Positions 2,931-13,346 of a stretch of DNA of 13,346 nt are shown here, one piece after another. Origin of the DNA: Fimbriimonadales bacterium (GTDB lineage Bacteria; Armatimonadota; Fimbriimonadia; Fimbriimonadales; Fimbriimonadaceae); NCBI GenBank assembly GCA_026392145.1, contig JAPLCS010000340.1, positions 1-13,346 of the forward strand, in the 5' to 3' direction. The position numbers were made by a program, and so were the translations under genes. The stretch's first letter is position 1. The number at the start of each line of letters is the position of its first letter. The notes beneath the pieces were generated by a model, which saw only the letters and a list, made by a program, of their open reading frames with translations, made no database searches and had not been told where the DNA came from.

Positions 2931-3007
2931 GGCGGGTGTAGCTCAGGGGTTAGAGCGTCTGACTGTGACTCAGAAGGCCGTGGGTTCGAGACCCATCATC
3001 CGCCCCA
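2931..3007 (+). tRNA. tRNA-His (anticodon GTG)
   Basis: A full cloverleaf can be folded by hand. The acceptor stem is GCGGGTG (2932-2938) with CATCCGC (2997-3003). The D arm is GCTC...GAGC. The anticodon stem TCTGA/TCAGA encloses loop CTGTGAC (2963-2969), with anticodon GTG at 2965-2967. The T arm is GTGGG-TTCGAGA-CCCAT. An extra G at 2931 (G-1) faces discriminator C at 3004. This G-1:C73 pair is the identity element read by histidyl-tRNA synthetase and confirms the call. CCA is encoded at 3005-3007. The gene stands alone between pilT and a small ORF. Confidence 0.97.
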
Positions 3008-8680: not shown

Positions 8681-9934
8681 TCAAGGAAAAATACCGCGAC
8701 GAACAGTTGCGTCCGCTACACGTTTCACACCAATAATCAGCGCCGCAGTTCTCATATCGGTACCGTATTGCTTCATCGTGGCTTCAACATGGGCATAAGA
8801 ATGCCGCAATATTTTCGTTAATCGCTCGTTGACCTGATCCTCTTCCCAGAAGAAATTCTGCAAATCCTGAACCCATTCAAAGTAAGAAACTATAACGCCA
8901 CCCGAGTTCGCCAGAATGTCTGGGACAACAAACAGCCCCTTATCCTTAAAGATTCGATCAGCCTCAGGAGTACAAGGACCGTTCGCACCTTCTACCACTA
9001 ACTTGGCCTTAATTTTGTCTGCGTTATCCTTTGTAATTTGGCCAGAAATTGCCGCTGGAATCAAAATATCGCACGGAAGCTCCAATAACTCTGCATTGGT
9101 GACCGCCTGAGCATCCGCATACTCCCGAATACCGCCATCTCGCCCCGAGTACTTCGCTGTCAATTCAGCAACTGGTAATCCCTTTGGATTGTAAATGCCA
9201 CCAACGGCATCAGAAATTCCCACGACAATCGCGCCATGCTCCTCTGCAATCTTGGCCGCCGTAGCACCAACATTACCGAAACCTTGAACAACAACTTTAG
9301 CCCCGCCAAGATTCATTCCTATCGACTTAGCAGCTTCTTCAGTCGCGACAATAACACCTCGGCCAGTTGCTTCAACTCGCCCAAGTGAACCACCCAAATC
9401 CACTGGCTTTCCGGTCACACATCCCGGAACGGTGTAACCCTTCTGCATGGAAATGGTGTCCATAATCCACGCCATAACCTTGCCATTTGTGCCAATGTCT
9501 GGTGCTGGGATATCCGATCGTTCACCCAAAATGATGCTAATTTCGGTCGCATATCGTCTGGTGAGCTTCTCAATTTCGCGCAGACTCAGTTGTTTAGTAT
9601 CGACTTTAACCGAGCCCTTAGCTCCACCATAGGGAATATTAACAACGGCGCACTTCCACGTCATCCACATCGCAAGCGCTGTGGTTTCATGAACGTCAAC
9701 ATCAATGTGATACCGAATCCCACCCTTCGTTGGTCCTCTCGAAGAGTTGTGCTGGACTCGATAACCCTCGAAGCACACAACCTCACCATTGTCCATGACA
9801 ACTGGGAAATTGACCACCAACTGGCGCATAGGATGAGACAACACCTGATGCAATCCAGAATCAAGATCAAGATAGTCTGCCGCGATAGCTAGCTGCTCGC
9901 GGGCCATACCGAGGACGTCTACGTGCGTGCTCAT
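8681..9934 (-). CDS. gdhA: Glutamate dehydrogenase, likely NAD-dependent
   Basis: Cytoplasmic oxidative deamination of glutamate to 2-oxoglutarate and ammonia (or the reverse). The 417 residues match hexameric GDHs of the RocG/GudB type. Seen: GPTKGGIRYH (substrate Lys70), MTWKCAVVNIPYGGAKG (Lys94 and catalytic Lys106), ERSDIPAPDIGTN (catalytic Asp146), the Rossmann GFGNVG at 218-223, and VVGISDAVGGIYNP, where the acidic residue at the end of strand 2 fits NAD. ANGPCTPEAD and LANSGGVIVSYFEWVQ follow near the C-terminus. A related leucine dehydrogenase is less likely given the length and motifs. The ATG lies two bases after the mreD stop (TAATCATG), so it should be co-transcribed and probably translationally coupled with mreD. 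The terminator at 8618-8646 follows. Confidence 0.95.
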   Translation of the reverse strand: MSTHVDVLGMAREQLAIAADYLDLDSGLHQVLSHPMRQLVVNFPVVMDNGEVVCFEGYRVQHNSSRGPTKGGIRYHIDVDVHETTALAMWMTWKCAVVNIPYGGAKGSVKVDTKQLSLREIEKLTRRYATEISIILGERSDIPAPDIGTNGKVMAWIMDTISMQKGYTVPGCVTGKPVDLGGSLGRVEATGRGVIVATEEAAKSIGMNLGGAKVVVQGFGNVGATAAKIAEEHGAIVVGISDAVGGIYNPKGLPVAELTAKYSGRDGGIREYADAQAVTNAELLELPCDILIPAAISGQITKDNADKIKAKLVVEGANGPCTPEADRIFKDKGLFVVPDILANSGGVIVSYFEWVQDLQNFFWEEDQVNERLTKILRHSYAHVEATMKQYGTDMRTAALIIGVKRVADATVRRGIFP

Positions 9935-9936
9935 GA

Positions 9937-10419
9937 TTATTGTTTGGGTACACCTGTGAGCCGCTCGACTGGAATCACTACCAGTAGCGCGATCACACCG
10001 TTGTAAACCGCTGATATGATTGTAGCTTTTAAGCCCTCTCCAATGCTCCCTTCACGAGCAAGGATCATCATGAAGATGCCACCAATTAGCGTCATTACCA
10101 CTGTTACAATTGCTGTGACCAAAGGATTTCGCTGCACCCGTCCTTCTACTAGGAACCCAGCCATGCCCCCAAGCAACATCCGAGTCACAACAAATTGCCA
10201 CATCAGGCTCCCAATGACTGCTCCCTGAATAAGTCCAGCGGCAAATCCAATCACAAGTGCAAATCTCATTTCATGAAGCAATCCCAAAACCGCGATTGCA
10301 ATTATCAAGAAATCTGGAGTCGCTCCCCAAATTGCCATCTTCGAGGCTAAACCTTGATTCAAAGCTCCTGCAAGGTAAATCACCAAGGCACTCATGGAGA
10401 AGAAGCGATTATTATTCAT
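9937..10419 (-). CDS. mreD: Rod shape-determining protein MreD
   Basis: Integral membrane component of the elongasome, linking MreB/MreC to lateral-wall synthesis. The 160 residues are largely hydrophobic, with about five membrane helices (for example ALVIYLAGALNQG, DFLIIAIAVLGLL, FALVIGFAAGLIQGAVIG, LVTAIVTVVMTLIGGIF, VYNGVIALLVVIPVERL). MreD sequences are poorly conserved, so the call rests on length, topology, the TPDFLII segment and position right after mreC. Its ATG overlaps the mreC stop in ATGA (10419-10416), a standard coupling arrangement. gdhA follows by two bases; mrdA (PBP2) and rodA, frequent next genes, are not here. Confidence 0.85.
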   Translation of the reverse strand: MNNNRFFSMSALVIYLAGALNQGLASKMAIWGATPDFLIIAIAVLGLLHEMRFALVIGFAAGLIQGAVIGSLMWQFVVTRMLLGGMAGFLVEGRVQRNPLVTAIVTVVMTLIGGIFMMILAREGSIGEGLKATIISAVYNGVIALLVVIPVERLTGVPKQ

Positions 10420-11231
10420 CTGATAATCACAACCTCTCTCAAACTTCCCACATTCGCAATCGGCAATACTCTCGCACGAGTCGCTCCAATTTCCTGCAAG
10501 TTCTCAACGGAAATCACACGTCCAATCGGAATCCCTCGCGGAATCAAAGGCGAAAAACCAGTCGAAAAAATTAAATCCCCACTCGCCAATGGCGAGTCGA
10601 TTGCCTGCACAGTCATCGTGATAACTGATGAATTATCGCCGCCAATCAACCCAGCCACTTGAGGCGTATGGTTGGTGGCAACCGCTCCAATTTTGAAGGC
10701 AGAAGAAGTCGTCAAAACCACCTGGCACTCACGACTTCCAACCGCTTGAACCCTTCCGACCAATCCTTCCGCACTTAGCACTGGCATCCCCTCAGCCACA
10801 CCTTTGTTGAATCCAGCTCCCACCTTGAGCGAGTGCGACATCGGAAAATAGCCCGTAATATCCGCGATCACTTTCGGCCGTTTATAAGTCTCTCCCAGAC
10901 CATTCAAAACCCGAAGCTGATTCACTTCGTTCTCGTAACGACTTACCGTTTCCGTATACATTGCAAGAGCAGTCAATTGCCGCTTTAATCGCGCATTCTC
11001 AAGCAACAATTTATCGCCACTGAGAGCACCAACAAAAAAGCCGTGCGTCCCAGTCGCAATACTCGACGAAAGTGAAGCCACTGGACTCTGAATGGTCCTC
11101 ACAATGGTATCTAGCGGACTAATGCTTCCCCGATTTTTCATCGAAGTCTGCAACAATCCCGCGCCAATCCCAACCACCAAGAGAATGACTACAAGAAGAC
11201 CGTTATTCTGTTCGCCTTTACCTCGTCTTAT
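10416..11231 (-). CDS. mreC: Rod shape-determining protein MreC, apparent ATA start
   Basis: Bitopic elongasome scaffold: short cytoplasmic N-terminus, one membrane helix, periplasmic coiled coil (about LLLENARLKRQLTAL through YENEVNQL), then a double beta-barrel domain containing ITGYFPMSHSLKVGAGFNKGV, GMPVLSAEGLVGRV and LASGDLIFSTGF. The first conventional start is TTG at 11180 (254 residues), but it falls inside the membrane helix. The frame is open upstream to 11246, and the codons from 11231 encode a basic stretch (RRGKGEQNNG) and the first half of the helix (LLVVILL). The codon at 11231-11229 is ATA, overlapping the mreB stop as ATAA, the same geometry as the mreC/mreD ATGA overlap. I place the start there (271 residues). 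A sequencing error or another rare start would be the alternatives. Confidence 0.9.
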   Translation of the reverse strand: MRRGKGEQNNGLLVVILLVVGIGAGLLQTSMKNRGSISPLDTIVRTIQSPVASLSSSIATGTHGFFVGALSGDKLLLENARLKRQLTALAMYTETVSRYENEVNQLRVLNGLGETYKRPKVIADITGYFPMSHSLKVGAGFNKGVAEGMPVLSAEGLVGRVQAVGSRECQVVLTTSSAFKIGAVATNHTPQVAGLIGGDNSSVITMTVQAIDSPLASGDLIFSTGFSPLIPRGIPIGRVISVENLQEIGATRARVLPIANVGSLREVVIIR

Positions 11232-12286
11232 GACGACGAAGACCTCTCAAGCATTTTTCGAATCACCGGATTGGTATTCATTTCCTCAACAATAATTCCT
11301 GTTCCCAACGCAACACAACTCAAGGGGTCATTCGCAATATGGACAGGTACCAACGTCTCATTGGCAATCAAAACATCAAGGTTTCTCAACAATGCACCGC
11401 CGCCAGCAAGATAAATCCCCTTCTCCATAGCGTCTGCGGCCAACTCAGGCGGTGAAGCCTCTAGCGTCAACTTAATCGCTTCAATAATCTCCTTCACTGG
11501 CTCGGCAATCGCAGTCCGCACTTCCTCACTAGTAATCACCGCACTTCGTGGCAACCCAGTAATCAAGTCTCGGCCCTTAATGACCATGTCCATTTCTTGC
11601 TCCAAAGGAAAAGCTGACCCAATTTCAATCTTCACCGTCTCCGCAGTTCGATCCCCTATCGCAAGATTAAAAGCCCGCTTCACATACGAAATAATTGCTT
11701 CATCGAGCTCGTCTCCCGCTGTTCTAACTGACTTTGAACTCACAATCCCACCGTATGAAATCACCGCAACTTCGGTGGTTCCTCCGCCAATGTCAACAAT
11801 GATCGAACCGCTCGGCTCTGCAATTGGAAGCCCAGCCCCAATCGCTGCCGCCATGGGTTCCTCAATCACGTAGGCGTGAGTAGCACCCGCTTTCTTTGCT
11901 GCCTCAATGACCGCACGCTTCTCCACTTCGGTCACACCGCTTGGAATTCCGACAACAACCGTCTTTCGAAAAAATGAACGAGCAGAAACCGAACGAATAA
12001 AGTGTCGCAGCATCTCCTCAGTCTGCTCATAATCGGCAATAACTCCATCCTTCAACGGACGAACCGCAATGATATTGGCAGGAGTACGCCCAAGCATCCT
12101 CTTGGCCTCTGCCCCAACCTTGATAACTTTGCCATCGTCTTTGTTGACTGCCACCACGCTCGGTTCCCGAAGCACAATTCCTCTCCCACCTACATAGACC
12201 AACGTATTGGCGGTACCCAAATCAATTCCAATATCTCGATGGAACTTAGCAAAATAGGTTTGAAAAAATCCGGGGCTAATCTTCAT
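11228..12286 (-). CDS. mreB: Rod shape-determining protein MreB
   Basis: Bacterial actin that forms membrane-bound filaments and steers the elongasome. 352 residues from ATG 12286. Seen: DIGIDLGTANTLVYV (phosphate-1 loop), VAVRPLKDGVIADYE-type segment, VVVGIPSGVTEVEKRAV, EEPMAAAIGAGLP, VDIGGGTTEVAVIS (phosphate-2 loop), SVRTAGDELDEAI, IYLAGGGALLRNLD (adenosine motif) and a C-terminal VIRKMLERSSSS. The frame opens at 12319, but that start adds 11 non-family residues; the ATG at 12286 gives the usual short hydrophobic N-terminal lead-in (MKISPGFFQTYF) and has AGGAAG just upstream. It overlaps the end of remA by 11 bases, and its stop overlaps the apparent mreC start. Confidence 0.97.
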   Translation of the reverse strand: MKISPGFFQTYFAKFHRDIGIDLGTANTLVYVGGRGIVLREPSVVAVNKDDGKVIKVGAEAKRMLGRTPANIIAVRPLKDGVIADYEQTEEMLRHFIRSVSARSFFRKTVVVGIPSGVTEVEKRAVIEAAKKAGATHAYVIEEPMAAAIGAGLPIAEPSGSIIVDIGGGTTEVAVISYGGIVSSKSVRTAGDELDEAIISYVKRAFNLAIGDRTAETVKIEIGSAFPLEQEMDMVIKGRDLITGLPRSAVITSEEVRTAIAEPVKEIIEAIKLTLEASPPELAADAMEKGIYLAGGGALLRNLDVLIANETLVPVHIANDPLSCVALGTGIIVEEMNTNPVIRKMLERSSSS

Positions 12287-12557
12287 GCTCTTCCTGTTCT
12301 CCCACGGTGTTATCACCACCCGAAAGTCGCTTGGCTAATGTTTCCTGAGAAATCGCAGAGAGCACAATTCCGTCTGGTGCAGTAAAAATAATCGACTTGG
12401 TCCTTCGACCCTGCGTGGCGTCGATTACTTTTCCGTCTTTTCTCAAGGTTTGAATCATCCGGCGCATCGGTGCAGATTCACTACTCACCATTGCAACAAT
12501 CTTATCGGTCATTACATAGTTGTAAAAACCGACATTCAAAACAACTGGTTGCGCCAA
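12276..12557 (-). CDS. remA: RemA-like DNA-binding regulator (DUF370 / RemA family)
   Basis: The 93 residues closely follow the RemA family: LNVGFYNYVMTDKIVAMVSSESAPMRRMI corresponds to the [29 protein letters not shown] block of Bacillus RemA. DGKVIDATQGRRTKSIIF (ID-AT-GRRT) and IVLSAISQETLAKRL complete it. In Bacillus RemA is a DNA-binding activator of biofilm matrix and osmoprotection genes; its role here is unknown. The start is TTG (12557-12555), supported by family length and GGGAG on the minus strand at about 12570-12566. That site and the start codon lie in the 3' arm and T-tract of a perfect hairpin (12556-12589). The last 11 bases overlap mreB, placing a RemA-type regulator first in the cell-shape operon. 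Confidence 0.9.
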   Translation of the reverse strand: MAQPVVLNVGFYNYVMTDKIVAMVSSESAPMRRMIQTLRKDGKVIDATQGRRTKSIIFTAPDGIVLSAISQETLAKRLSGGDNTVGEQEEHED

Positions 12558-12589
12558 AAAAACTCCCTCTTAGTCTCAAGAGGGAGTTT
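12556..12589 (-). terminator. Perfect 12-bp terminator hairpin overlapping the remA start
   Basis: On the minus strand AAACTCCCTCTT (12589-12578), a six-base loop (12577-12572) and AAGAGGGAGTTT (12571-12560) form a perfect stem whose final T's continue into a seven-T run (12562-12556). By form it is a strong intrinsic terminator for the gene ending at 12638. Its 3' arm holds the GGGAG that would serve as the remA ribosome-binding site, and the T-run includes the first two bases of the remA TTG codon. It may therefore act as an attenuator or translational switch. Confidence 0.8.
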
Positions 12590-12637
12590 ACTGTATCTTG
12601 ACCTGTTTTTTTAAGGTTTCCTAGATTCGTGCGAAGG

Positions 12638-13041
12638 TTATTTTCCGCCGCCCATTCCAGTCGCACCAGCAGCAGAAGGAGTCATCCCACTAGGACCTCC
12701 GCTCATGGATGCCATCGGAGGCATACTCTTTCCGCCCCCAGGTCCACCGCTCATCGAAGCCATTGGAGGCATTCCCTTTCCGCCGCCTCGTGAACCGCAC
12801 CTGCAGCTGCACCGCCACCGTTACCACCACCACTTGGTAGTTGGTTGGCAATCGTCACACCACCGTAAGGTGGTTCGCCGTTTGGCAACTTAGCTGCCTG
12901 AGTATTAATCGCAGTCGGAGCACCGGGAGCAGCGGGAACAGGTTTGGTGAAAAATACGACCGCAATCGCAATCAATGCGACAACGGGAAACACGATTGAA
13001 AGAATCAAATTCGTTTGGGGGTTAGGACCAGGATTGCTCAT
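12638..13041 (-). CDS. Small membrane-anchored Gly/Met/Pro-rich protein, broken by a one-base frameshift
   Basis: Unrecognised protein. From ATG 13041 the first 82 residues comprise a short polar start, one membrane helix (about 12-31) and a Pro/Ala/Gly-rich stretch. In the literal frame it then turns into AVHEAAERECLQWLR and stops near 12751, which is unlike what precedes it. Adding one base near 12788-12798 (GCGGTT to GCGGGTT on the minus strand) restores a frame that runs on as SRGGGKGMPPMASMSGGPGG, includes a second copy of MPPMASMSGGP and ends MGGGK at TAA 12640-12638. The full length would be 134 residues. The composition is continuous across the join, so a single-base deletion (sequencing error or recent mutation) is the best reading. 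A promoter candidate lies upstream and the hairpin at 12556-12589 downstream, making it likely monocistronic. Confidence 0.65.
12693..12788. repeat. Two tandem 48-bp repeats coding for a 16-residue unit
   Basis: Copy 1 is 12693-12740 and copy 2 is 12741-12788, aligned without gaps and differing at scattered, mainly third-codon positions. Each codes, on the minus strand, for a unit containing MPPMASMSGGP. The silent character of most differences supports this frame being the translated one. Confidence 0.75.
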
Positions 13042-13170: not shown

Positions 13171-13346
13171 CTAGTGGTTGAAATGTCTCGTGCCAGTAAA
13201 GCACATCGCAATTCCAAGTTCATCAGCTTTCGCAATGACGTCACCATCCTTTTTGCTACCGCCAGGCTGAACAATCGCCTTGATTCCTGCTGCAGCCGCC
13301 GTTTCAATCGAATCAGGGAACGGGAAGAATGCATCGCTTGCGAGTA
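13171..13346 (-). CDS. purH: Bifunctional AICAR formyltransferase / IMP cyclohydrolase PurH, C-terminal end only
   Basis: The last two steps of de novo IMP synthesis. Only the final 57 codons are in the window, read from the right edge to TAG at 13173-13171. They read [20 protein letters not shown], then [20 protein letters not shown] and [14 protein letters not shown], which is the conserved end of the PurH transformylase domain (E. coli ends in MVFTGMRHFRH). No start lies inside the window because the gene continues beyond base 13346. An overlapping frame (13038-13334) that opens with ATG is a shadow of this gene. Confidence 0.95.

Follow-up and report, generated by a model that had tools for sequence, protein, structure and literature searches.

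The minus strand of the window (the whole stretch of 13,346 nucleotides analysed here) carries an operon of five genes, remA, mreB, mreC, mreD and gdhA. Upstream of it on the same strand lie a small Gly-rich gene and the 3' end of what I take, on its translation, to be purH (Table 1). The gene order in G003, another genome of the genus, is identical: a purH-like gene, the small Gly-rich gene, remA, the mre genes and gdhA. The end of remA overlaps the start of mreB by 11 nt, and in G003 the called mreB begins at 70319, with the last base of remA at 70329. The Gly-rich gene, a possible source of read-through into remA, follows one reading frame to about 12795 and another from there to its stop at 12638. 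In G002 and G003 it is a single open frame, and the break in the window is either an assembly error or a real frameshift.

Table 1. Genes of the remA region and elements at the remA start, in the order in which the minus strand is read
Feature	Position	Strand	Remarks
purH 3' end (name presumed)	13171-13346	minus	resembles the long gene that precedes the Gly-rich one in G017 and in G003
small Gly-rich gene	12638-13041	minus	upstream of remA; frame broken in the assembly
predicted -10 box TAAACT	12585-12590	minus	five of its six bases are the outer 5' arm
5' arm AAACTCCCTCTT	12578-12589	minus	almost wholly before the predicted transcription start
predicted transcription start	12577-12578	minus	12-13 nt after the first T of TAAACT; stem-loop junction
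loop GAGACT	12572-12577	minus	6 nt
3' arm AAGAGGGAGTTT	12560-12571	minus	
Shine-Dalgarno-like GGGAG	12563-12567	minus	inside the 3' arm, 5 nt before TTG
T-run, seven T	12556-12562	minus	first three also close the stem; last two are part of TTG
remA TTG start codon	12555-12557	minus	
remA, 93 aa, RemA-like	12276-12557	minus	PF04025, 100.6 bits; TTG start
mreB	11228-12286	minus	PF06723; likely start 12286 (ATG)
mreC	10416-11180	minus	Pfam
mreD	9937-10419	minus	MreD below Pfam's cut-off, 21.5 against 24 bits
gdhA, glutamate dehydrogenase	8681-9934	minus	last operon gene

The TTG start of remA is well supported. In the four genomes of the genus that have TTG (G000, G002, G003 and G009) it stands 6 codons before the motif LNV(G/R)F, and a scan of about 45 nt upstream, or as far as the first stop, meets no other start codon. 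Matches to remA amount to 54 rows in 52 of 61 genomes, and the loci of the best 30 were studied. A second set of 43 loci, 20 of them on contigs that by length are already in the first, brings the total to 53 distinct loci. Two of these could not be parsed; at 49 of the other 51 the chosen start falls at 6 codons, under a rule that allows 3 to 8 codons, takes ATG first and favours 6. One locus of Fimbriimonadaceae type (L045) comes from a record titled Methanoregulaceae archaeon, probably a mislabelled bin. Among 17 genomes of the same family and other genera, seven (G020, G022, G023, G024, G029, G034 and G035) have no remA match, which suggests repeated loss.

The initial annotation had described a perfect 12-bp stem with a 6-nt loop and a T-run over the GGGAG and TTG of remA, and that is just what the window sequence holds (arms 12589-12578 and 12571-12560, minus strand). 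Its run of seven T's is also there, but three of them form the closing A-U pairs of the stem and only four lie beyond it; the U-tract reaches seven once those pairs are opened. With G-C at only 5 of the 12 pairs, the stem is a moderate one as terminators go. No perfect stem in the window is longer (loops of 3 to 12 nt), and a 12-bp stem arises in one of 60 dinucleotide shuffles of the whole window, while terminator-like sites there, 13 against 14.2 expected, are not above expectation. Taken alone the stem is only modestly improbable window-wide, and it is placement and conservation that carry the case. The hairpin itself (43 nt) folds at -18.1 kcal/mol (z -4.10), a value reached by none of 200 shuffles, and with its flanks (68 nt) at -21.5 (z -2.54; 5 of 200 shuffles as low). 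The pattern TAAACTCCN{2,25}GGAGTTTTT occurs once in the organism's own genome, which is 89.9% complete, and that occurrence is at remA.

A scan for consensus terminators does not list the minus-strand site, giving only a reading on the plus strand with a poor tail, because three of the seven T's are inside the stem. A scan demanding a strict tail missed it as well, and the rule was then altered so that stems are trimmed to G-C ends. After trimming, a G+C-containing stem of 10 bp is followed directly by 7 U, in the manner of an intrinsic terminator, with a d-score of 26.8 by the formula of d'Aubenton Carafa. Support for the use of intrinsic terminators by this clade is thin: of 447 gene ends in G002 and G003, 22 score, against 8 on the reverse strand and none in shuffled sequence.

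If the hairpin stands on the ribosome-binding site of remA, how is remA ever translated? The initial annotation found no clear promoter before the hairpin, and the usual signs are indeed missing there: a scan with the sigma-70 consensus gives no site at the hairpin, TAAACT matches TATAAT at only four of six positions, and no clear -35 box is visible. For these reasons the clade's own motif was learned, from genes called across 1.18 Mb of G002 and G003 together with 20 contigs of G000, by a caller that missed the remA of G002 and is therefore imperfect. Where at least 60 nt upstream of the gene is noncoding (611 genes), TA[AC]A[CA]T is about ten times commoner at 12-17 nt from the start codon than at greater distances. 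Among 711 genes of the three genomes with at least 40 nt, TA[ACGT][AC][AC]T shows a sharp peak at 12 nt (34 motifs); 109 of the 711 have TA...T at 11-14 nt, where TAAACT is the commonest hexamer (12 cases). A TANNNT about 12 nt before the start codon has been described as a sign of leaderless bacterial genes (PMC3160421), and such genes look common in this Fimbriimonas group. From its position, TAAACT very probably acts as a -10 box in this clade, transcription beginning about 12 nt after its first T.

There is then a promoter motif after all, overlapping the 5' arm of the hairpin. The spacing of the clade, borrowed from the peak of leaderless genes (the 34 motifs at exactly 12 nt), would place the start of remA transcription at the junction of stem and loop. 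The initial annotation had offered leaderless or internal initiation as ways around the hairpin. Internal initiation survives; leaderless initiation does not, since remA in the window is predicted to have a leader of 20-21 nt with a free Shine-Dalgarno sequence, GGGAG 5 nt before TTG. That leader is predicted to be open (MFE -4.9, z +1.59, centroid without pairs). The promoter motif is a feature of the genus: TAMACT lies within 60 nt of the remA start in 18 of the 19 genomes with a remA match, in a sample of 20 (the exception is G007); of 401 control stretches, taken 61-120 nt before genes, 8 contain it. Seventeen of the genomes have a predicted leader of 15-27 nt and G008 has one of 4 nt, and in 16 of the 18 assessed a core of GGAG, AGGA or GAGG has its first base 9-15 nt upstream of the start (G007 is outside the 18; G008 and G011 are the exceptions). 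Nor is the motif a mere by-product of the stem, for TAAACT is present in G008 and G032, where the scan finds no stem overlapping it.

The geometry of the hairpin, the -10 motif of the clade, the start codon and their conservation can all be read from the sequences. To account for them, I propose that the hairpin is a guard against read-through with the promoter of remA nested within it. RNA polymerase arriving from purH or the Gly-rich gene would copy both arms, and the RNA would fold into the 12-bp stem over GGGAG. Meeting the U-run at TTG, this transcript would terminate at the first codon of remA, and any RNA that escaped would have its Shine-Dalgarno sequence paired and its ribosome site hidden. 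RNA from the gene's own promoter, whose -10 box TAAACT is in the 5' arm, would begin at the loop (about 12577), lack the 5' arm, leave GGGAG exposed and so be translated. The operon from remA through mreBCD to gdhA would be expressed only from its own promoter. Since remA and mreB overlap by 11 nt, mreB could also fall, by translational coupling, when the remA start is hidden. I infer the start point, the termination, the translational block and the benefit, and I judge this the best explanation of the hairpin, a probable one. It agrees with the initial view that the first codon of remA is where transcripts from upstream would end or be locked.

The nearest competitor is compaction: an ordinary terminator of purH or the Gly-rich gene that happens to share bases with the promoter and Shine-Dalgarno sequence of remA, guarding nothing and locking without a role. 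Space is certainly short, with just 47 nt between the upstream stop at 12638 and the -10 box. Relatives speak to both explanations. By the trimmed scan, 9 of the 19 genus loci have an overlapping stem with a U-rich tail, three (G011, G007 and G016) have no overlapping stem and a separate terminator-like site upstream instead, and the remaining seven (G005, G008, G010, G012, G013, G014 and G019) have no terminator-like site within 220 nt. Separate sites are what one would expect if the need is to stop read-through, and they suit compaction just as they suit a guard; the seven genomes with no site at all weaken the argument from read-through. What speaks against compaction is pairing of the Shine-Dalgarno sequence with bases before the predicted start where there is no tail worthy of a terminator, as in G015, with 10 pairs and a weak tail, and in G005 (z -3.83) and, more weakly, in G013 (z -0.67) and G014 (z -1.65). 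This pairing may itself be what is kept, and compaction by itself, the strongest of the alternatives, seems unlikely.

Was the hairpin kept in close relatives, as the initial annotation asked? In the nearest clade it was; further out it is often absent. The d-score exceeds 0 in eight of the 19 genus genomes (G000, G001, G002, G003, G004, G006, G009 and G018). A tree of MreB genes (midpoint root, no support values) brings together G000, G003, G009, G002, G001, G015 and G018, with G006 as sister, and seven of these eight genomes score above 0, G015 being the exception. Outside the genus 5 of 32 loci have a site (L023, L026, L053, L057 and L058), and only at L057 does it overlap the Shine-Dalgarno region. 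The stem at L057, of 8 bp, spans 36 to 7 nt before remA, with the Shine-Dalgarno sequence in its loop, a T-rich tail, and a 5' arm that lies largely before the predicted transcription start. G017 has no remA match. Between its Gly-rich gene and mreB there is a 70-codon ORF (L179:9981-10227) that begins MPVVLNAGF, then diverges, and beyond that does not look like RemA; in front of it stands GTAAACTCC...AGGAGTTTTT, where the promoter motif is present and the hairpin is shortened to 7 bp.

Pairing that straddles the predicted transcription start can be scored at 35 of the 51 remA loci (14 have no -10 motif and at 2 the leader is too short). The mean z is -1.12, and ten loci are below -2: G000, G002, G003, G006, G004, G005 and G015 within the genus and G036, G030 and L071 outside it. 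The pairing is weak in G012, G013, G010, G016 and G011. For 35 other genes, the remA of G003 among them, the mean is -0.19, with three below -2, and by these scores the trait is not shared by the family at large. In L009 (G036), some 60 nt before remA, there is a long stem around a -10-like motif, CACACT, with the Shine-Dalgarno sequence near the base of its 3' arm (z -4.92), possibly a third geometry. The same arrangement was looked for at other genes. Among 759 with at least 30 nt of noncoding sequence upstream, 23 have a stem that qualifies and whose end lies 0-14 nt upstream of the called start, and in five of these a -10-like motif lies over the 5' arm: remA of the window, remA of G003, an ATPase gene of G002 and two genes without a T-run. 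The ATPase gene (C1:359077-360678), presumably R3H-like, is immediately preceded by a stem of 15 pairs with a T-rich tail and with TACAAT at the 5' edge; its own RNA would keep most of the stem.

One might suppose instead that nothing has been selected at all, that a -10 box (TAAACTCC) and a Shine-Dalgarno sequence with its U-rich spacer (GGAGTTT) are complementary by chance and that the stem they make has no function. In favour of this idea, the two signals largely impose 7 of the 12 pairs, and one shuffle of the window in 60 yields a 12-bp stem. The outer 7 pairs hardly vary, because the -10 box and the Shine-Dalgarno sequence fix them, and it is the inner five that do. Furthermore, the 20 genus genomes show no excess of the bare pattern AAACTCCN{3,28}GGAGTTT, with 38 forward matches (the remA site accounts for 9) against 33 for the reversed control.

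Covariation was counted on ungapped arms, because MAFFT misplaced the 3' arms when given whole hairpins. Left aside were G006, with its other geometry, and the genomes with no AAACT...GGAG frame (G007, G008, G010, G011, G013, G014 and G016), and G009 was merged with G002, which has the same arms. In the resulting 11 distinct arm pairs, 82.6% of cells are paired as compared with 74.9% after shuffling, cells with both sides changed number 16 as compared with 7.1, and the covariation score is 0.233 as compared with 0.114, none of 500 shuffles doing as well in any of the three. Pairs with a change on both sides (5 against 4.0; 142 of 500 shuffles) and types of pair (13 against 10.7; 77 of 500) are not above shuffles, and when partners are slid by +1 the covariation score is still 0.190, with 13 pair types. 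Covariation is thus significant on three of five measures, by tests that ignore kinship. A swap test on the same genomes, minus G017 and with G009 as a row of its own (11 genomes), gives 10.18 of 12 pairs for arms from the same genome and 9.17 for swapped arms; 5 of 20,000 shuffles do as well, or 13 of 20,000 with G009 removed, kinship again being ignored.

The swap test thus favours own arms, against chance. So does a survey of 17 candidate -10 boxes 24-45 nt before a start with a Shine-Dalgarno-like core: ACTCC runs out of the -10 box only at the remA of the window and that of G003. The best single argument for selection on the stem comes from G006, where it is built differently. There a 10-bp stem of other sequence has TACACT in its loop, the first T of the motif closing the stem; the predicted start is the first base of the 3' arm, and GGAG is paired before a run of six T's. 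Set against all this, mere coincidence appears improbable, more so than compaction.

The initial annotation raised a further idea, that the hairpin is a control point, an attenuator or translational switch for remA-mreBCD-gdhA, perhaps responsive to RemA itself. Such a switch would act on a longer leader of the operon's own, and a terminator over a Shine-Dalgarno sequence is one form that a combined attenuator may take (PMC2965389). With the -10 box overlapping the 5' arm, however, the operon's own RNA is predicted to be without the hairpin, and the native message need not carry one. As for RemA, the sites that it binds in Bacillus have been characterised as direct repeats that are AT-rich (PMC8481266). 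An autoregulatory site would be expected to show such repeats, of 7 bp at 3-bp intervals; the remA site in the window is an inverted repeat. Nor does Rfam, at gathering score, match anything in the window except a tRNA at 2932-3004. Sensing of RemA finds no support in these comparisons, and I think a regulated switch of any kind very improbable. Least likely of all, by a little, is a palindromic operator over the -10 box, bound by RemA or another repressor; palindromes so placed are often operators, and a gene of G002 that I take from its sequence to be BlaI-like appears to have one, but within the genus the loop varies from 4 to 13 nt and the inner stem in sequence, unlike an operator of fixed spacing, and in the nearest clade the T-run is on one side only.

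The guard with a nested promoter that I favour resembles arrangements in mobile elements. In IS10 and IS50 the RNA folds back in a way that shields the transposase gene from outside transcription, hiding the start signals only in read-through RNA. This is the logic proposed for remA, although those are mobile elements and remA belongs to a chromosomal operon that has the same gene order in G003. Insertion sequences also block transcription entering from outside by means of terminators at their 5' ends (PMC2965389), again at the front of a gene and against incoming transcription. As described in that source, they have no promoter or Shine-Dalgarno sequence nested in the stem, while the stem at remA shares its bases with both.

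The closest likeness is to phage T4. Its genes e, soc, 49 and I-TevI have ribosome sites that are hidden in the long RNAs made early, and late promoters of e and I-TevI yield RNAs without the 5' strand of the stem (PMC3014915, PMC2988022). Gene e is thus described much as I picture remA: RNA from upstream, with the full stem, is poorly translated, and a promoter lying within the stem or just above it gives RNA that is translated. At remA the Shine-Dalgarno sequence does lie within the stem; motif and spacing only (TAAACT and the predicted start) indicate that its own RNA is without the 5' strand; and two genes on the same strand precede it, in the window and in G003, whose transcription is assumed. 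The differences are as instructive. Gene e belongs to a phage and is under temporal control by late promoters, and the passages cited mention no terminator U-run for it; remA heads a bacterial cell-shape operon and has a -10 box of housekeeping type and a terminator tail. A terminator that also sequesters a ribosome-binding site was proposed in 2010 as plausible and undemonstrated (PMC2965389). That proposal too unites transcriptional and translational blocks in one hairpin, yet, as presented there, it concerns an attenuator on a leader, while the own RNA of remA is predicted to start inside the hairpin.

Among the matches listed from the open literature, no paper concerns remA-mre transcription or leaderless genes in Armatimonadota, and the open papers listed do not contain the combination of nested promoter, terminator and lock on the Shine-Dalgarno sequence. 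The logic of the lock is known from phage T4; a bacterial operon that has it with a terminator U-run looks new, as a variant. The fullest form of the idea is one that I offer tentatively, as quite possible and less secure than the guard itself: an element of about 36 bp would serve three uses (-10 box, intrinsic terminator and lock on the ribosome site), be kept by compensatory change in more than one geometry, and shield the cell-shape operon from upstream transcription. It would be to a cell what the gene e lock is to T4, with a terminator built in.

The arrangement provides a rule by which lineages rich in leaderless genes can be searched: a -10 box in the 5' arm, a Shine-Dalgarno sequence in the 3' arm, and a U-run that is also the spacer to the start codon. 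It also carries a warning, that a hairpin over a ribosome site need not act on the gene's own message. Why the mre genes would need shielding from their neighbours is a question that it raises. If the model is true, the start and the stop of transcription share the same bases in a very compact design, and a core bacterial operon for cell shape uses a read-through lock best known from phage.
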